The notes under the pieces: model-generated
Databases searched by the model: none
Told to the model about the DNA's origin: nothing
Seen by the model: only the letters and a program-made list of their open reading frames with translations
Assembly (NCBI GenBank): GCA_013619035.1
Contig: JABXKX010000382.1
Coordinates: forward strand, 1-6,045
Reading direction: 5' to 3'
DNA length: 6,045 bases
Origin: Peptostreptococcaceae bacterium
GTDB taxonomy: Bacteria; Bacillota_A; Clostridia; Peptostreptococcales; Acidaminobacteraceae
Program-made: the position numbers and the translations under genes
Part shown: positions 1 through 6,045 of the stretch, in pieces
How positions within the stretch are numbered: position 1 is the stretch's first letter
How the letters are laid out: every line of letters begins with the position of its first letter

Positions 1-208
1 CTCTTGTACCTACAATATCATCATTAATAAAAATACTGCCATTATCAAAAGTTTCTATACCACTGAGTAATCTTAATAATGTGGATTTACCACTGCCACT
101 TTTCCCGATTAATGCTACCGCTTCAACTTCTTCTAAATTCAGACTAACATCATTGAACACGACTTCATCACCATATTTTTTGGTTAAGTTATTGATTTCT
201 ATCTTCAT
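1..208 (-). CDS. ABC importer ATP-binding subunit, amino-acid type (N-terminal 69 residues; rest lies beyond the left edge)
   Basis: This is the ATPase of the importer whose permease and binding protein lie immediately upstream; it would power uptake on the cytoplasmic face of the membrane. The visible protein begins MKIEINNLTKKYGD, the typical first strand of an ABC nucleotide-binding domain. The Walker A motif GKSGSGKST is at residues 35-43, followed by LLRLLSGIE and a NGSIFIN strand. The Q-loop, signature, Walker B and switch His fall outside the window and cannot be checked. The ATG (208-206) overlaps the permease stop TGA in an ATGA arrangement, so the two are probably translationally coupled; upstream there is only a weak purine-rich stretch (AAGAGAATAAAG). 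Fold and subunit role are certain. Membership of the polar amino acid family is inferred from the two neighbours. Confidence 0.95.
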   Translation of the reverse strand, partial: MKIEINNLTKKYGDEVVFNDVSLNLEEVEAVALIGKSGSGKSTLLRLLSGIETFDNGSIFINDDIVGTR

Positions 209-942
209 ATCTTTATTCTCTTTTCTAAATCATCGGTAAGTTGTAATAGCGGTATTGTTATTAATAGATACAATGCCAACATAATCAAATACCCTTCGGT
301 ATAGGCAAATGTATTTGACTGTACTGTTGATAAATTATAATAAAGTTCCTTAAATCCAATCAAATACAACAACGAACTACTTTTTATTATTGAAGAAAGA
401 TGCCCAGATAAAGGGGGTAACATTATTTTAATCATTTGAGGGAAAATAACATATCTGTACATCTGTATCTTATTAAAACCAAACAAATCACATACAACCA
501 ATTGATTTTTATCAATACTTTCAAATGCACTGATAAAAAGTTTCATCATAAAAGGTGAAAAATAAATAGTTAACGAAGTGATACCTAATATTAATTTGCT
601 ATCAATATTAAGTGCTGTTCCAATAAAGAAATAAAAGACAATGACAACAACCAACATTGGTGAACCAAACATAATGTTGGTTAAATGATTGGTTAAGTAT
701 TTTACATACAAAATCTTACTTCTTCCTGTGAAAAACAGGAAGAAGCCGAAGATAAAACTGAGTATAAATATAATTAAACTGATAAAAATAGTCCAACCAA
801 ATCCTGTTGCTATATACCCTAGATAAGGTATATATTTTTCAAAATGCAATTCTGAATTCGGTATATTGATGATAACCAAATAAACACCTAATAGTAATGT
901 TAATATGGATAATATATAATGTATTGCTTTTTTAATCTTCAT
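205..942 (-). CDS. ABC importer permease, polar amino acid (His/Glu/Gln/Arg) family
   Basis: This is the membrane subunit of the importer, 245 residues from the chosen start, and probably acts as a homodimer because no second permease is visible. The first membrane segment is at about residues 6-26. A BPD-type permease core follows at about 45-230, and the C-terminus ends LTDDLEKRIKI, as in the HisM/GlnP family. The loop contacting the ATPase is at about 149-168 (DLFGFNKIQMYRYVIFP); it keeps the conserved Gly155 and Pro168, but the usual Glu-Ala-Ala is Val-Val-Cys. The frame is open to an ATG at 978, which would add MKWLGKDSSFTY. I prefer 942: it places the first membrane helix at the N-terminus and overlaps the end of the binding-protein gene by only 11 bases, which suits translational coupling. 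Neither start has a good Shine-Dalgarno sequence. The transported substrate is unknown. Confidence 0.93.
   Translation of the reverse strand: MKIKKAIHYILSILTLLLGVYLVIINIPNSELHFEKYIPYLGYIATGFGWTIFISLIIFILSFIFGFFLFFTGRSKILYVKYLTNHLTNIMFGSPMLVVVIVFYFFIGTALNIDSKLILGITSLTIYFSPFMMKLFISAFESIDKNQLVVCDLFGFNKIQMYRYVIFPQMIKIMLPPLSGHLSSIIKSSSLLYLIGFKELYYNLSTVQSNTFAYTEGYLIMLALYLLITIPLLQLTDDLEKRIKI
719..745. repeat. perfect 11-bp inverted repeat inside the permease gene
   Basis: The arms CTTCTTCCTGT (719-729) and ACAGGAAGAAG (735-745) are exactly complementary around a 5-base loop. In the permease mRNA this forms a stable hairpin encoding FFLFFTGRS, near the end of the second membrane segment. The 3' arm contains a Shine-Dalgarno-like AGGAAG, and the following bases (TAAGATTTTG) are mildly U-rich but not a proper terminator tail. 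It may tune transcript level or folding, or may be a by-product of codon choice. The structure is seen directly; any role is unproven. Confidence 0.6.
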
Positions 943-1744
943 ATAAGTAAAACTCGAATCCTTTCCCAACCATTTCATTTAGCACACCATCGTACGCCGT
1001 CGCTATTTTTTCGTTTACGCCCAATTCATCACGTTTGCTAATAAATTCATTTAACTTATCTAATAACTCGGTATCATTCGGTCTTACACCCATACCTATT
1101 GGTGAAACATCAATAGGTTCGTAAATAACCATTAATTCTTCCGGATAGTTACGACTGATACTCACTGCACTTGCAGCATCAACCATAAATATATCTGCAT
1201 TACCACTTACCAATTCTAATGTCGCTGTTGCTTTATCATCAAATTCCAATATAGAAGGGTTATTTGCTTTTTCCTTTGCTATTTCTAAGGTAGAAAAACT
1301 CTTCGGTCCAACAAATCTAATCCCTTCTTTGGTAAAGATGTCTTCATATGTTTTTACGTCACTGCTCTTGTTAACAATAGATAAAATCTTAAAATACATA
1401 TATGGATCAGAAAAAGCTATTGACTCTTTTCTTTTCTCTGTTATACTCATTGAAGCAATAATGACATCAATTTTCTCTGTTTCCAAAGCTGGTATCAAAC
1501 TACCAAACGGCAAATCAACAATTTCAACTTTTTTTCCTAAATATGCACCTAACTCCTCAGCGATCATAACACTAATACCTTCTGGATTACCACTTGTATC
1601 TGTACTTTCAAATGCTGGCCATTTAAGCTCCATACCAACTTTTAAGACATCTTCATCTTCACTTGTATTACAGCCAATCATGGTAAATACGATTGCTATC
1701 AACAACGTTATGACCATTATTTTTTTTGTCTTTTTAATATTCAA
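932..1744 (-). CDS. amino-acid ABC transporter substrate-binding lipoprotein (SBP_bac_3 family)
   Basis: This is an extracytoplasmic receptor that delivers its ligand to the permease, 270 residues. A Lys-rich n-region (KKTKK) and hydrophobic core lead to a lipobox, MIGC, with Cys25 as the lipidation site, so the mature protein is membrane-anchored. Family 3 binding-protein landmarks follow: KWPAFE (41-46), ASMSITEKR (97-105) and FSDPY (111-115). Arg105 is the residue that normally binds the ligand alpha-carboxylate. Ser151-Thr152, and Asp189 in MVDA, correspond to the residue that normally binds the alpha-amino group. These point to an amino acid or close analogue; the exact ligand cannot be read. 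The start is TTG, chosen because AAAGGG lies 7 bases upstream; the next ATG (residue 10) has no ribosome site and would remove the Lys-rich n-region. It is first gene of the SBP-permease-ATPase operon, under a MarR-type operator. Confidence 0.95.
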   Translation of the reverse strand: MNIKKTKKIMVITLLIAIVFTMIGCNTSEDEDVLKVGMELKWPAFESTDTSGNPEGISVMIAEELGAYLGKKVEIVDLPFGSLIPALETEKIDVIIASMSITEKRKESIAFSDPYMYFKILSIVNKSSDVKTYEDIFTKEGIRFVGPKSFSTLEIAKEKANNPSILEFDDKATATLELVSGNADIFMVDAASAVSISRNYPEELMVIYEPIDVSPIGMGVRPNDTELLDKLNEFISKRDELGVNEKIATAYDGVLNEMVGKGFEFYLYED

Positions 1745-1764: not shown

Positions 1765-1797
1765 TTTATATACTTCGACGTCGAAGTATATCATCAA
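1765..1797 (-). promoter_or_regulatory. candidate promoter of the ABC importer operon
   Basis: A TATAAA/TATATA -10 (within 1772-1765) lies just downstream of the palindrome core on the minus strand. The -35 is poor: TTGATG (1797-1792) is 19 bases from TATATA, and TGATAT (1793-1788) is 17 bases from TATAAA. The exact hexamers are therefore uncertain. A promoter is expected here because the preceding marR gene ends in a terminator and because the operator covers this site. Confidence 0.5.
1768..1791. promoter_or_regulatory. MarR-type operator O1 (24-bp perfect palindrome) upstream of the importer operon
   Basis: The core TACTTCGACGTCGAAGTA (1771-1788) is perfectly symmetric, and symmetry continues three bases on each side (ATA/TAT), giving 24 bp. 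The identical 18-bp core recurs at 2254-2271 in the marR promoter. It lies 23 bases upstream of the binding-protein start and overlaps the presumed -10. A dimeric winged-helix repressor bound here would block transcription of the importer. The MarR protein encoded next door is the obvious candidate; binding is inferred, not shown. Confidence 0.85.
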
Positions 1798-1821
1798 AAA
1801 AGATGAGCCTACTTTTGGCTC
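1796..1821 (-). terminator. rho-independent terminator of marR
   Basis: On the minus strand, GAGCC - 7-base loop - GGCTC (1821-1805) is followed by ATC and six T (1801-1796). The marR stop codon TAG lies in the loop and 3' arm, so the last sense codons form the 5' arm. The stem is short (5 bp) but GC-rich. It separates the marR transcript from the importer operon. Confidence 0.65.
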
Positions 1822-2243
1822 TTAAAATTCTGATAAACTTGTTCTAGTCCTTCTTTGAAACATTTCACCTGTTCTTCATCCAAATGTTGATATTGGATGT
1901 CATATAACTTCTCAGATATTTCAATAAAATCCTCTTTCATTAAAATACCTTTTTCAGATAAAGAGACTATGGTTGACCTGGCATCCTCTTCATTAACACG
2001 CGATACTATATATCCAAGGTTTTCTAACTTTCTTAATAAAGTTGTAACTGTTGAACGTTCCTTCTTTATTCCATTGGATATTTCAGTTTTAGTCATCTCA
2101 CCGTGATATAAAAGCGCCGAAAGAATATTACCATGAGATGGTACTAATCCCACATGACCTCTTAGTTCTAACTCTTTAACAATGACTTGATTTGCCAAAT
2201 CGCGTATTCGGCTAATTCTTGATATTGTATTATCTATTCTCAT
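1809..2243 (-). CDS. MarR-family transcriptional regulator, probable autorepressor and repressor of the adjacent ABC importer
   Basis: This is a dimeric winged-helix DNA-binding protein of 144 residues, a usual MarR length. The N-terminal dimerisation helices are at about 1-30, and the PSHGNILSALL helix follows at 35-45. The helix-turn-helix (MTKTEISNGIKKERSTVTTLLRKLENLGYI) spans about 50-79. The wing (about 80-99) carries the family's D-x-R at Asp87/Arg89. The only Cys is Cys128 near the C-terminal dimerisation region, so classical two-Cys redox sensing is not indicated; the ligand is unknown. The frame is open upstream to a GTG at 2315, but that extension has no ribosome site and contains the marR promoter and operator. 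I therefore start at the ATG at 2243, which matches normal MarR N-termini. Identical operators in front of this gene and of the importer suggest autorepression and control of the transporter. Confidence 0.93.
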   Translation of the reverse strand: MRIDNTISRISRIRDLANQVIVKELELRGHVGLVPSHGNILSALLYHGEMTKTEISNGIKKERSTVTTLLRKLENLGYIVSRVNEEDARSTIVSLSEKGILMKEDFIEISEKLYDIQYQHLDEEQVKCFKEGLEQVYQNFKSQK

Positions 2244-2249
2244 ATCAAG

Positions 2250-2278
2250 ATTATACTTCGACGTCGAAGTAATGTCAA
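2250..2278 (-). promoter_or_regulatory. consensus sigma-A-type promoter of marR
   Basis: Reading the minus strand, TTGACA (2278-2273), a 17-bp spacer and TATAAT (2255-2250) match both consensus hexamers and optimal spacing exactly. The expected start of transcription, about 7 bases downstream, falls on or next to the ATG at 2243. The spacer is almost entirely the operator palindrome. The promoter lies inside the apparent N-terminal extension of the longest marR reading frame, which argues against that extension. Confidence 0.88.
2254..2271. promoter_or_regulatory. MarR-type operator O2 (18-bp perfect palindrome) inside the marR promoter
   Basis: TACTTCGACGTCGAAGTA is identical to the core of O1 at 1771-1788; here symmetry stops at 18 bp. 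It fills the spacer between -35 and -10 and touches the first two bases of the -10, so bound repressor would exclude RNA polymerase. This is the classical arrangement for an autorepressor. Confidence 0.88.
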
Positions 2279-2416: not shown

Positions 2417-2881
2417 TTATTTTTGATAAAAGAAACTTGTCCCTTCGTCTCTAATCATGCCTACTCCTTCATAACAGTTAATACCAGATGGATTTTGAGT
2501 GTCTACGTATAATCTAGTTTTCCATAACCCCATCTCTTCAGAAGTCTCTATTACCTTATTCATCAATGCTTTTGCAATACCATGACCTCTGAATTCTTCA
2601 GGTACCCATAATTCATCAACAAACATTGTCCCCAATCGTTTATCCGGCTTAGGAATGACTGATGCTGAGATATATCCTGCCTTTTGATTATTCAATAGTG
2701 CCATATAGATATGCATCAAATCATTATTGATCAAATCCCACAAGCCGATCACATCGTCTTCCAATGCTAACTTAAACTCTGTATCAGGATTTGGTTTTAC
2801 ACCCACTCTACGCCATTCTGTCATTTCAGTAAATTCTTTGTAATTTTCTTTCGTAATTTTGATAATTTCCATACTCTGCAT
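2417..2881 (-). CDS. GNAT-family N-acetyltransferase
   Basis: This is a 154-residue cytoplasmic enzyme expected to transfer an acyl group from acyl-CoA to an amine; the acceptor substrate cannot be predicted. The central strand MFVDELWVPEEFRGHGIAKALM (about 86-107) carries the acetyl-CoA pyrophosphate-binding motif R-G-H-G-I-A at 98-103. The later motif (NPSGINCYEGVGM, 130-142) places Tyr137 at the usual general-acid position of the fold. Length matches a single GNAT domain with no fusion. The start ATG at 2881 has AGGAG six bases upstream; the ATG three codons later is too far from it. It is probably monocistronic, with a promoter candidate upstream and a terminator downstream. No link to the flanking MarR or CPBP genes is visible beyond proximity. 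Confidence 0.93.
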   Translation of the reverse strand: MQSMEIIKITKENYKEFTEMTEWRRVGVKPNPDTEFKLALEDDVIGLWDLINNDLMHIYMALLNNQKAGYISASVIPKPDKRLGTMFVDELWVPEEFRGHGIAKALMNKVIETSEEMGLWKTRLYVDTQNPSGINCYEGVGMIRDEGTSFFYQK

Positions 2882-2968: not shown

Positions 2969-3700
2969 TCAATTGTTCATAATAATGATCAATAGTTCAA
3001 TCACTGTAATGAAGTTAGCCAAACAATGTACGATGATACCTAATAACATGGACTTCTTTTTATAGACAACATAAAAAAGTGGGGTGAGTGCAATGAACCT
3101 TGATAATATTAACCACGGTGACCAAAAATGATAAACGGCAAATAACAGTGAATGGATAACAACACCAAAACTCCCCATCCATTTCATCCTAGGCAATAAA
3201 TATCCACGAAAGTACAGTTCTTCTATGATGGGTACCAAAAGCGTAAAACTTAAAAATGAAACAACTGCAGTCCAGATGATTAAGTTTTTACTAAAGGCTG
3301 TCATATCTTGTATGAAATTATATTCCGTATTGATAAAGAAAAAAACGTGGTCAAAAAGCTTTTCTGAAATTGGTGCAGTCAGTTTCATCAATGCACCAAT
3401 TATCACGATTAAAACAACAGTATATCCTAAGTTCTGTTTGACGCTTAAGATTTTTTTGAATTTCAGCACCTTAAATATATTAAAACTATTTGTTTCTTTT
3501 TTAGAGATATACAGTAAGTACCCCAGTTCAAAGATTACTGCAAAGATTGCAGCTGATATCCCTAGTAGAATGGTTCTAGGCAGATAATTAAAAGCTTCAA
3601 TCTTTAAAGCCATTAAATATCCAAGATTAATCATAAGTCCAGGCAACAAATGTAGAATGATTATTTTTAGTTTATATTCTATCTTGTTTGTATTTTCCAT
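2969..3700 (-). CDS. CPBP-family intramembrane glutamic endopeptidase homologue (Abi/CAAX-protease-like)
   Basis: This is a 243-residue integral membrane protein with several hydrophobic segments (about 12-32, 42-65, 91-108, 139-158, 175-192, 196-214, 217-241). All signature motifs of the family are present in order: Glu160-Glu161 with Arg165 (EELYFR), Phe187-x3-His191 (FAVYH) and His225-x3-Asn229 (HCLAN). Together they form the presumed active site within the membrane, so the protein should be catalytically competent. Known relatives act in prenyl-protein processing, bacteriocin self-immunity or signalling; nothing nearby decides which. The longest frame starts at 3721, but AAGGAGG (3712-3706) lies 5 bases before the ATG at 3700, so the first seven codons of that frame are the ribosome site and not protein. 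The gene appears to be transcribed alone. No bacteriocin precursor is recognisable nearby. Confidence 0.93.
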   Translation of the reverse strand: MENTNKIEYKLKIIILHLLPGLMINLGYLMALKIEAFNYLPRTILLGISAAIFAVIFELGYLLYISKKETNSFNIFKVLKFKKILSVKQNLGYTVVLIVIIGALMKLTAPISEKLFDHVFFFINTEYNFIQDMTAFSKNLIIWTAVVSFLSFTLLVPIIEELYFRGYLLPRMKWMGSFGVVIHSLLFAVYHFWSPWLILSRFIALTPLFYVVYKKKSMLLGIIVHCLANFITVIELLIIIMNN

Positions 3701-3721
3701 AATATCCTCCTTAACTATCAT

Positions 3722-3750: not shown

Positions 3751-4019
3751 ATATAATGCTAAATACTTACCCTATATGGAAATAAAGTGCTCTTTCAAAT
3801 GAGAAACTCAAAAGTTTGACTTACAAAATTTAAATAGCTCTTTGTGATATCATAGAAAAAAATGGATTGAAGTGGTACAATATTGAAGACGTTTTTATAA
3901 TTCTTTATGAGTACGTCAATTGCATTTTTGACCTAAAACTCAGTTATCAATAGTTTAATTAAGTCAAGCACATTCATATAAATTGATGTTTGCTTATTAA
4001 ATGCAGGAGGACTCTTAAT
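3751..4019. other. gene-free AT-rich intergenic stretch
   Basis: I find no coding frame of useful length on either strand between the CPBP promoter and the plus-strand small ORF; all six frames are broken by frequent stops. Visible structure is limited to a short dyad AAACT-4-AGTTT (3804-3817), a GTCAA...TTGAC inverted pair around 3915-3932, and the candidate plus-strand promoter at 3954-3982. No tRNA, recognisable riboswitch or mobile-element end was seen. It could be decayed coding sequence, but no homology is readable by eye. Confidence 0.6.
3954..3982 (+). promoter_or_regulatory. candidate promoter for the plus-strand small ORF
   Basis: TTTAAT (3954-3959), a 17-bp spacer and TATAAA (3977-3982) would start a transcript near 3989, about 30 bases before the ATG at 4020 and ahead of its AGGAGG. 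The -35 matches consensus poorly (3/6). An alternative, TTGACC at 3929-3934, has correct spacing only to a poor -10 (TAGTTT). Confidence 0.33.
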
Positions 4020-4097
4020 ATGTTTAATATTATCATGAACGGACATGAGTTAGTCGATACAAGTGGCATTATCATTTTACTTAATAGAGAAAATTGA
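4020..4097 (+). CDS. candidate small protein, 25 residues, function unknown
   Basis: This is the only plausible plus-strand gene. A full AGGAGG (4005-4010) lies 9 bases before the ATG, and the ORF ends at a TGA just before a strong hairpin terminator, so promoter candidate, ribosome site, frame and terminator are in correct order. The peptide begins MFNIIMNGHELVDTSGIIIL and ends LNREN. It has a short hydrophobic run (GIIILL, 16-21), too short for a confident membrane helix, and no signal peptide or Cys. I recognise no family. It converges with the MerR gene and shares its terminator. It could be a genuine small protein, a leader-type peptide, or the surviving 5' end of a lost gene; after the stop the frame closes again within 11 codons. 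Confidence 0.45.
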   Translation: MFNIIMNGHELVDTSGIIILLNREN

Positions 4098-4152: not shown

Positions 4153-4941
4153 TTAATTATTGCAAATAGGAATGTACACTTCTAAATACGATTTCATTTC
4201 AGCCTCTTCTTGACCAATGAACAACATATTGATATAACACTCTCCTGTTATAACCAACTCCCTTTCCGTCATATATTGCATCGTTCTTTCATAAGTATGT
4301 TTGACTATATCTTCACCATCATAAGAATCTTCAACAACAGTATAAATACACTTTCCTGGTGAAATGACATTATCAGAGTTTAAATCAGCCACCTGATCAC
4401 AATCTTCGGTTATTAACATAGAGCTCGTAACTAGTTTATCATCATGCATAACTATTTTTCTAGTCAGTTTCTTTAAGGTTGCTTCTTTTTTATTTTTACC
4501 CGTCTTATGAATCTTATTAAACTCTCCATAAGAACGAAAATCTTCTATTTCTCCATGTATATATACAGCTGGCATCTCTTTGATACTAAACACGTTTAAG
4601 TTTTTTCTGATGACTTCGCAGTCGTCTCTAAACTTATTCAGATTGTTTTTAATCAAATTCAGTTCTTCCAATTTAAGTTTTATCTCTTTTTCTTTTTCTA
4701 CAGTCATTGATTCTACATCATTAATAGTGCTATTAAGACAAATCTCTCTTATGGTATCAATGCTCAGATCCATAGTTCTATAAAACTCTATTAATAATAC
4801 CGTATCAATATCACTAAAATTATACTCCCTATAATTGTTTGTCTCATTTTTTTGAGGTTTTAAGATCCCTTTTACTTCATAATACCTTAGGCGGTCTTTA
4901 GAGATGCCTGTAATTTCTGATACTTGACCTATTGTATACAT
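4153..4941 (-). CDS. MerR-family transcriptional regulator with GyrI-like effector-binding domain
   Basis: This is a ligand-responsive DNA-binding protein of 262 residues. The N-terminal winged helix-turn-helix (1-70) starts MYTIGQVSEITGISKDRLRY, with YREYNFSDID in the wing region. A long dimerisation helix of coiled-coil character (about 80-116, Lys/Glu-rich) follows. The C-terminal domain (about 121-260) has the GyrI/BmrR fold pattern and ends SYLEVYIPI, where Glu254 sits at the position of the buried glutamate that contacts cationic drugs in BmrR-type proteins. Members typically activate multidrug efflux genes, but no efflux gene is in view, so the target may be remote or autologous. An ATG four codons upstream (4953) is possible, but GGAG inside that stretch is well placed for the ATG at 4941, and normal MerR proteins begin here. 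The gene stands alone. Confidence 0.92.
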   Translation of the reverse strand: MYTIGQVSEITGISKDRLRYYEVKGILKPQKNETNNYREYNFSDIDTVLLIEFYRTMDLSIDTIREICLNSTINDVESMTVEKEKEIKLKLEELNLIKNNLNKFRDDCEVIRKNLNVFSIKEMPAVYIHGEIEDFRSYGEFNKIHKTGKNKKEATLKKLTRKIVMHDDKLVTSSMLITEDCDQVADLNSDNVISPGKCIYTVVEDSYDGEDIVKHTYERTMQYMTERELVITGECYINMLFIGQEEAEMKSYLEVYIPICNN

Positions 4942-4957
4942 AAAACTCTCCATTATT

Positions 4958-5017: not shown

Positions 5018-6045
5018 CTAATTCGCATTATAAAAATAGATTGATATCTTTGAAACCGTATCTCCTTCAAAGTAAATGGCCATAAAAGCACTACCTGGTT
5101 TGGTTGTTACTAACAGTTTGTAGTTACTGTCTTCAAGGCCTAAAGAACCCATATATCCCTGAGTTTCGGTAGTTTCACTTCTTTCGCCGTAGAATACGCC
5201 CTCGGATTTTAAATAGTTCTTTTCATGTGGAAACTTCTTCAATACGTCTTCAAGTGTTTGTCCTACTTTAAGGCCTCTTGGTAAGTCATAATCTATTTTT
5301 CCAATCACATCAATTCGCCAGATAGAGTCATCAAACTCTGTAAATCTATAATCAATATTCTCTGCATGATAAGCCTCTTTGGAAAACTCTAAATGACTTA
5401 ACTCACTTTCAAGAATAGTTGAGTCAAATAACTCAAATGATAATATTTCTTTTTCTGATAAATATGGAATCTCCAAGTTCCAAGGCACCCACTCAATGAT
5501 AATCGGGAATTGACTGGCTGCCGATGCTATGTCAAGTTGATATAGCTCATAAGTATAATACATGTACCCACGATCTATCCATGTCACAACTTCATAGTTC
5601 AATACATCCTCTTCATAAGTCAGCAAAACAACTTCTTTTCCGTCTTTTGTATCAATCAAAAGTTTTAGAGTACCCGTTTCAACATCAACTGAGTAAACAT
5701 CTCCACCTTGAGTAACGGTACCTGTGTCAAAACCTATAATGGAAATTAGTCGATTGTCATCTAACCACTGACAGGATTTCACGGTTCTGCTCTTGTCTTG
5801 AAGCTTTATTAGATCCTCTGAAATGACTTGAGACAGTTGATCCTCCTGATAGATGTTAATCGTACCATTCGCTTCAAATCCAACGCCACTTACAAAAGCG
5901 ATCTTATCACCTGAGGGATTGATAGTCGGTACAGAAAGTGTCCCTTTTTCAATTAAATGATAACCATCATTTCTTTTAATAATAATTTCACTTACTATTT
6001 CTAGTTTGAAGTAATCTCCTTCTGTTAGATAATAAATCTCAGAAC
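5018..6045 (-). CDS. DUF4652-type beta-propeller-like protein, C-terminal 341 residues (start lies beyond the right edge)
   Basis: The frame is open to the window edge, so the GTG at 5782 is an internal valine codon and not a start. The visible part begins SEIYYLTEGD. At about residues 38-66 a propeller-like strand repeat appears (PTINPSGDKIAFVSG, then NGTINIY). A second follows at about 91-125 (CQWLDDNRLISIIGF, then GTVTQGGDVYSVD), the pattern I associate with DUF4652. From about residue 190 a second region begins, with RGLKVGQTLEDVLKKFP near 266-282. That resembles the short 'conditioned on G-x-T-x-x-D-V-x-x-x-F' domain of some Firmicutes surface proteins, and the protein ends KISIYFYNAN. 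An exported location is likely for this family, but the N-terminus is not visible. Function is unknown; the family assignment is from memory of the pattern. Confidence 0.8.
   Translation of the reverse strand, partial: SEIYYLTEGDYFKLEIVSEIIIKRNDGYHLIEKGTLSVPTINPSGDKIAFVSGVGFEANGTINIYQEDQLSQVISEDLIKLQDKSRTVKSCQWLDDNRLISIIGFDTGTVTQGGDVYSVDVETGTLKLLIDTKDGKEVVLLTYEEDVLNYEVVTWIDRGYMYYTYELYQLDIASAASQFPIIIEWVPWNLEIPYLSEKEILSFELFDSTILESELSHLEFSKEAYHAENIDYRFTEFDDSIWRIDVIGKIDYDLPRGLKVGQTLEDVLKKFPHEKNYLKSEGVFYGERSETTETQGYMGSLGLEDSNYKLLVTTKPGSAFMAIYFEGDTVSKISIYFYNAN

Follow-up and report, generated by a model that had tools for sequence, protein, structure and literature searches.

How the importer genes of this locus are regulated, and by which protein, is the question raised by the 6,045 nucleotides of Peptostreptococcaceae DNA analysed here (the window; G+C content 32%), in which a marR gene stands next to an importer operon. 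The original prediction held that one local MarR protein acts on two identical operators and governs one importer. It relied on an 18-bp perfect palindrome said to occur exactly twice, once extended to 24 bp ahead of the importer and once inside the marR promoter, and it judged a chance origin very unlikely.

The palindromes, the marR gene and the importer of the window

The motif and palindrome scans confirmed both the count and the positions. The sequence TACTTCGACGTCGAAGTA has exactly two copies, at 1771-1788 and 2254-2271; a third was not found in the window with up to three mismatches. The importer-side copy is the core of a perfect 24-bp palindrome, and the marR-side copy is a perfect palindrome over 18 bp. 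Chance is indeed a poor explanation, since the motif was matched in 0 of 200 dinucleotide shuffles of the window, and perfect palindromes of at least 18 bp occurred at a mean of 0.048 per shuffled window (500 shuffles) vs two, with the same core, in the real sequence. Along the minus strand, marR is followed by a terminator-like hairpin, operator 2, the binding-protein gene, the permease gene and the beginning of the ATPase gene, operator 2 being placed between the marR stop (1809) and the TTG start of the binding-protein gene (1744). The features are collected in Table 1.

Table 1. Coordinates of the features of the window.
Feature	Position	Strand	Basis or remark
ATPase, first 69 aa	2..208	-	continues past the window edge; 235 aa in L001
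Permease, BPD_transp_1	205..978	-	frame overlaps the end of the binding-protein frame
Family 3 solute-binding lipoprotein, TTG start	932..1744	-	SBP_bac_3, E 3e-30
Operator 2, perfect 24-bp palindrome, core 1771-1788	1768..1791	none	ahead of the importer operon
Terminator-like hairpin with T run, marR end	1805..1821	-	similar sequence readable in L001
marR, 144 aa, ATG start	1809..2243	-	protein domains, aligned relatives, promoter geometry
marR promoter: TTGACA 2278-2273, 17-bp spacer, TATAAT 2255-2250	2250..2278	-	promoter scan
Operator 1, TACTTCGACGTCGAAGTA, perfect 18-bp palindrome	2254..2271	none	within the marR promoter; motif and palindrome scans
GNAT acetyltransferase	2417-2881	-	neighbour gene
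CPBP-type membrane protease	2969-3721	-	neighbour gene
MerR-type regulator	4153-4953	-	neighbour gene
DUF4652 protein	5018-6043	-	neighbour gene

The marR promoter (TTGACA-17-TATAAT) is the only 12-of-12 consensus match of the promoter scan in the window. Its spacer is filled by operator 1, which also supplies the first TA of the -10 box. Because the ATG at 2243 lies only 6 nt past the -10 box, the marR mRNA is predicted to be leaderless, with its start at or beside this ATG. The longest frame, from GTG 2315, would place the consensus promoter and the operator inside the coding region and was rejected; since, in addition, an alignment of 25 relatives shows hardly any variation in the ATG column, ATG 2243 is the most likely start of marR. 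An RNA hairpin as the function of operator 1 was likewise rejected because the site lies upstream of the expected transcript start. The product scored above the curated cut-offs of MarR_2 (35.8 bits, cut-off 27) and MarR (34.3 bits, cut-off 24.6), and below the NCBIfam cut-offs of the radical SAM mobile pair MarR (TIGR04472, 48.8 vs 240 bits), of AdcR (NF038251, 20.5 vs 175 bits) and of NF052638, the sole OhrR model matched (27.6 vs 200 bits).

The importer is of family 3, with SBP_bac_3 at 105.1 bits and BPD_transp_1 at 46 bits (cut-off 26.4 for each), and ABC_tran reached 48.6 bits (cut-off 25) on the incomplete ATPase gene. The same order of binding protein, permease and ATPase in one operon is found in L001, the locus of the nearest genome (Clostridiales MAG21, G001). 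The best NCBIfam matches of the permease were cystine, ectoine and glutamine permeases, every score being under its cut-off. A Shine-Dalgarno-like AAAGGG precedes the binding-protein gene at 1752-1757. Operator 2 ends 26 nt ahead of the importer start codon and shares bases with a weak -10-like TATATA; the promoter scan gave no match at operator 2.

As for the cargo, the AlphaFold2 model of the binding protein has a mean pLDDT of 92.9, and the solved structures nearest to it are those of proteins binding arginine and other amino acids. The best 50 matches listed in the fold search comprise binders of arginine, glutamine, tryptophan, cystine and other ligands (TM 0.46-0.73 to the query), a spread that does not fix the ligand of the modelled protein. 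In HisJ and LAO proteins, the alpha-carboxylate and alpha-amino group of the ligand are held by Arg77, Asp161 and a GTT/GST loop. Among 40 homologues of the window's binding protein, Arg105 is invariant (40/40), and position 189 is Asp in 29 and Ser in 11. The window has a KSF loop vs GTT in the aligned arginine-binding protein, and similar loops prevail among the homologues (Lys148 in 37/40, Ser149 in 31/40 and Phe150 in 35/40). An amino acid or an analogue is the likely cargo. The amino-acid-type importer originally proposed is plausible, given an SBP_bac_3 score well above the cut-off and the invariant Arg105, and the ligand itself is left unsettled by KSF in the place of GTT. A second family 3 cassette occurs in the nearest genome (L136), with a binding protein 38% identical, no MarR detected beside the cassette and one in-frame TAG counted in the matched stretch.

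Conservation of the operators and of the marR promoter

Gene order in L001 is the same as in the window, including the neighbouring GNAT, CPBP-type, MerR-type and DUF4652 genes; the DNA is 83-86% identical and MarR 94% identical. About 320 bases between the CPBP-type and MerR genes (3757-4077) have no counterpart in L001, where the flanking matches are nearly adjacent, so that either the window acquired an insertion or L001 lost the segment. A viral origin of the locus was rejected: the exact motif was found in 0 contigs of the viral collection searched, and none of the 60 viral stretches matching the peptide pattern encodes a relative of the MarR alignment (tblastn). A plasmid origin was rejected as well, the two matches in the plasmid collection covering 2% and 1% of the window; five MarR relatives in that collection are 30-41% identical.

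Of the two operator sites of L001, one has no mismatch and the other has one. A search of G001 with up to three mismatches revealed no third site, with 2 matches vs 6 for the reversed control pattern. The genomes of six relatives (G001, G002, G003, G004, G005 and G238) were then searched with TACTTCGANNTCGAAGTA at up to two mismatches. Exactly two sites with 0-1 mismatch were found in each of G001, G003, G005 and G238, all of them at the orthologous marR locus, and these genomes hold 0, 1, 1 and 2 additional sites with two mismatches, respectively. G002 has no site, and G004 has one with two mismatches, at its own marR (L043). At up to two mismatches, the counts against the reversed control were 2 vs 4 in G001, 3 vs 7 in G003, 3 vs 3 in G005, 4 vs 8 in G238, 0 vs 5 in G002 and 1 vs 1 in G004. 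Such loose matches are no commoner than the control; therefore, only near-exact, co-located copies count. The conservation of the motif at orthologous loci, a check set beforehand, was thereby established, with copies of 0-1 mismatch occurring only there in four genomes. A genome-wide scatter of the palindrome, which would have spoken against the prediction, was not seen at 0-1 mismatch in G001, G003, G005 and G238.

The near relatives, in which MarR is about 50% or more identical, were examined at the DNA level (L001, L002, L003, L043, L115 and L116). In five of the six, all except L002, operator 1 precedes the ATG by 28 nt, and directly after marR a second copy stands before the importer operon. 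L002 has dyads upstream of marR, and the second copy after marR was not seen. For further close relatives of this MarR, the comparison covered the protein sequence. In L003, L043 and L116, operator 2 shortly precedes a Shine-Dalgarno-like sequence. The conserved motif at orthologous loci lends support, at the level of sequence, to the arrangement of one local MarR, two operators and one importer. The further suggestion that the stronger symmetry at the importer reflects tighter repression there did not hold among the relatives. Over 18 bp, the symmetrical pairs at the marR/importer copies are 9/8 in L001, 9/8 in L003, 8/7 in L043, 7/9 in L115, 9/9 in L116 and 9/9 in the window. Hence symmetry is lower at the importer copy in L001, L003 and L043, lower at the marR copy in L115 and equal in L116; the importer copy of the window, equal to its marR copy over 18 bp, is longer (24 bp). 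A further dyad, TACTTAGATGTCTAAGTT, is present at L116:6463-6480, starting 32 bp before operator 2.

The promoter design was followed in a wider set of marR upstream regions. The best 80 of 108 confirmed stretches gave 79 loci (L001-L079), and 30 of the matches of a further search were turned into loci. Among the 111 rows entered, L089-L092 duplicated L051, L117, L119 and L118 and were dropped, which leaves 107 rows (the window, L001-L079, L093-L114 and L115-L119). L080-L088 were left out, eight of them repeating the loci L001, L003, L115 and L116, and L082 being a chance site in G004 without this marR; the later loci L120-L147 are outside the 107 rows. The rule required a dyad of at least 7 of 9 pairs ending in the first TA of a -10-like box, itself 16-18 nt from a TTGACA-like box. 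Counting the window, 64 of the 107 regions have a dyad inside such a TTGACA-17-TATAAT-like promoter; in the controls, it was found in 8/5350 shuffles and 9/651 other genes of the same loci. The spacer is 17 nt in 62 of the 64, and an ATG follows the -10 box by 4-8 nt in 48, exactly 6 nt in 43 of these; the 48 placements are mechanical, and at least one (L062) is followed immediately by a stop. With the ATG included, the rule holds for 48/107 marR regions vs 1/5350 shuffles and 1/651 other genes. By record title, the 64 include Clostridia, Gastranaerophilales (Melainabacteria), a deltaproteobacterium and Syntrophaceae; they are non-independent because many are Gastranaerophilales or rumen records by title. 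The other 43 of the 107 regions do not follow the rule, among them both Spirochaetes (L034 and L067) and the Coriobacteriia.

The consensus of the 64 dyads is TANTTNGAYRTCNAANTA. Among these loci, a C at position 3 marks precisely the seven, window included, whose MarR shares about 50% identity or more with that of the window; the 57 others lack it. This rule is not strict, since the C also occurs outside the 64 in L033, L040, L045 and L053 (MarR identity 36-45%) and in L128 and L132.

These counts bear on whether the palindromes might instead be bound by a different regulator encoded elsewhere, the nearby MarR being incidental. MarR is linked to the palindromes by neighbourhood and conservation alone, which leaves some room for this explanation. 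Nevertheless, we consider it quite improbable, as dyads of this class accompany the MarR genes of the clade at the same promoter position in 64/107 loci vs 9/651 other genes. By inspection, seven of those nine have the same dyad type and may be MarR targets; in L119, the dyad-bearing other gene comes after marR.

A proposed repressor-importer switch

We therefore favour, with a probability of about 0.85, a self-contained switch in which MarR would act on one dyad at two promoters as repressor of its own gene and of the importer. We infer that a MarR-family dimer binds the same 18-bp dyad before its own gene and before the importer operon. At marR, the dyad fills the space between the -35 and -10 boxes; therefore, bound MarR should exclude RNA polymerase. 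Transcription would begin at the ATG or beside it, and leaderless translation of the mRNA would lead to a low repressor level. At the importer, the dyad would act where it overlaps the weak -10-like box. The inducer, probably the imported solute or its product, would release MarR; importer and repressor would consequently rise together, and the loop would be reset once the solute is gone.

Operator 2 could also have another role. If MarR were an activator, or if it only autoregulated, operator 2 might tune read-through from marR rather than importer initiation. Operator 2 has no consensus promoter even though the terminator-like hairpin parts marR from the importer, so that initiation there is not proven; moreover, in L128, L132 and L135 (short loci, up to four mismatches) the only site observed stands upstream of marR, close to a cassette of MarR and a family 3 binding protein. 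We nevertheless hold this role to be unlikely. Operator 2 covers a -10-like box in the window and stands shortly before a Shine-Dalgarno-like sequence in L003, L043 and L116, positions typical of blocking, and operator 1 fills the spacer of the marR promoter.

The proposed switch resembles known systems in several respects. HucR and MhqR bind 18-bp dyads (TACTTAGATGTCTACCTA and TATCTCGAATTCGAGATA, respectively) similar in shape to that of the window, and their targets differ. The zinc regulators AdcR and ZitR are MarR-family repressors of binding-protein ABC importers encoded nearby; they differ from the present case by their operator, TTAACYRGTTAA, and by a metal-binding solute-binding protein. 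The nearest precedent found for the promoter is ohrR of Chromobacterium violaceum, as described in PMC3469484. Its transcript starts at the A of the ATG and is leaderless, and this source cites the same for ohrR of Xanthomonas campestris and Streptomyces coelicolor. The promoter is of sigma-70 type (TTGCAA-17-TATTAT), OhrR binds two promoters, and the authors suggest that leaderless ohrR is inefficiently translated, resulting in low repressor output (PMC3469484). The window thus shares with this system a leaderless gene (here predicted) for a MarR-family repressor, a 17-nt spacer and two promoters. In contrast, OhrR is a cysteine peroxide sensor, and the MarR clade of the window has no conserved cysteine, no alignment column showing Cys in more than 3 of 25 sequences. 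By its lack of the reactive cysteine as well as by its model score, the window's MarR falls outside OhrR.

Importer classes beside the same MarR

Literature searches with the operator core strings returned only unrelated papers, and no published description of this operator-importer pair was found in a search mostly outside subscription journals. The original prediction did not know control of a family 3 importer by a neighbouring MarR as well characterised. As a gene arrangement it is recurrent, with examples among other Clostridia and the Coriobacteriia. In the latter, a family 3 importer follows MarR at four loci (L039, L047 and L056 assigned by record title, L040 by a separate check of its class) among the 79 loci drawn from the best 80 of 108 stretches. 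Across 391 genomes of the class of G001, 16 encode a binding protein at E up to 1e-30, in 18 places, and MarR stands beside it in four of the 18 (L120, which is G001 itself, L128, L132 and L135), a count from loci of at most 3.8 kb in which further MarR neighbours could be missed.

The pairing with a family 3 importer, as in the original prediction, turned out not to be conserved. L001 has a family 3 importer as in the window. In five of the six near relatives (L002, L003, L043, L115 and L116), the same MarR stands instead beside an unrelated OpuAC-type importer, made up of a permease, an ATPase and a binding protein whose OpuAC match scored 210-227 bits (cut-off 21). Hence the regulator and its operators appear, from sequence comparison, to have been kept while the importer changed, which is new here. 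G001, G003 and G005 belong to one family and are the only 3 of 41 genomes with a close MarR (E up to 1e-36); the exchange therefore falls within the single family of the window's nearest genome. No OpuAC-type binding protein was found in G001 with the query used. In a tree of 26 MarR proteins with many forks open, 10 were labelled by importer class, three of the five family 3 labels (P0007, P0008 and P0010) having been assigned because the MarR and binding-protein entries agree in the length of their longest contig. This tree requires no more than a single change of class (support 66/92; 94% of 200 bootstraps), and L043, the labelled row that branches deepest, is of the OpuAC class. The simplest reading would be that the family 3 importer came under a pre-existing MarR switch.

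Loci of both importer classes repeatedly encode, close to this MarR, a PNPOx-like protein with a fused ferredoxin part (L003:6425-7096 and L043:6443-7081; also L115, L116, L039, L040, L047 and L056). In the four Coriobacteriia loci its gene lies downstream, and in L047 the ferredoxin part alone was matched in the piece given. L056:9360-10355 encodes a protein between the importer ATPase and the redox gene, with a like place in L039 and L047; a guess that it is an ATP-grasp ligase found no support, the L056 protein having no Pfam match.

The nature of the inducer is the point on which a variant of the switch has to be weighed. MarR could sense a stress or a toxic compound, the importer supplying a protectant, which is compatible with the switch and concerns the inducer only. 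This is consistent with the PNPOx-4Fe4S protein in the loci L003, L043, L115 and L116 (not in L002) and with the partial regulation of a pneumococcal operon, joining a MarR gene and an ergothioneine importer, by the quinone sensor SifR (PMC9732360). Conversely, no PNPOx-4Fe4S gene is present in the L001 locus, G001 having only more distant relatives (best 38% identity), nor in the available part of the window, which ends inside the ATPase gene, and the MarR clade offers no conserved cysteine column. On balance, a stress signal is a possible inducer, the imported solute or its product being the preferred one.

A cargo common to both importer classes can also be considered. Among solved structures, 8dp6/8dp7 ('Osmoprotection protein'), which we take to be a Helicobacter ergothioneine binder, is the best match to the L003 binding protein; in EgtU, specificity is determined by Phe293 and Gly244. 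That both classes share a histidine-betaine-like cargo is no more than a lead, which arises from this presumed identity together with published findings on a pneumococcal MarR gene and on quaternary amines. In Streptococcus pneumoniae, spd_1645-1642 combines an uncharacterised MarR gene and the ergothioneine importer EgtUV in one operon, and related clusters may bind other quaternary amines (PMC9732360). This operon, with MarR and an OpuAC-class ABC importer, is comparable to L002, L003, L043, L115 and L116; it differs in being also under SifR (same source), and the importer of the window is of family 3, the likeness being one of gene arrangement.

A MarR-controlled importer switch is therefore of a known kind, and the exchange of the importer under a kept MarR is what is unexpected and new. 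Tentatively, MarR and its operator pair might be a portable cassette that kept sensing one solute when a family 3 importer took the place of the OpuAC type in the window's lineage. Both importers would then carry the same or a related compound, perhaps betaine- or histidine-like, and the leaderless, operator-filled marR promoter would be an old low-output design across phyla. The layout found in 64 of 107 regions suggests that this MarR clade may more generally follow the leaderless, self-operated design described for ohrR, and the promoter design merits a systematic survey. The locus offers a testable regulon of two promoters, one operator sequence and an importer of unassigned cargo. With the importer swapped under a fixed regulator, the ligand of MarR would provide a handle on the cargo of both importers.
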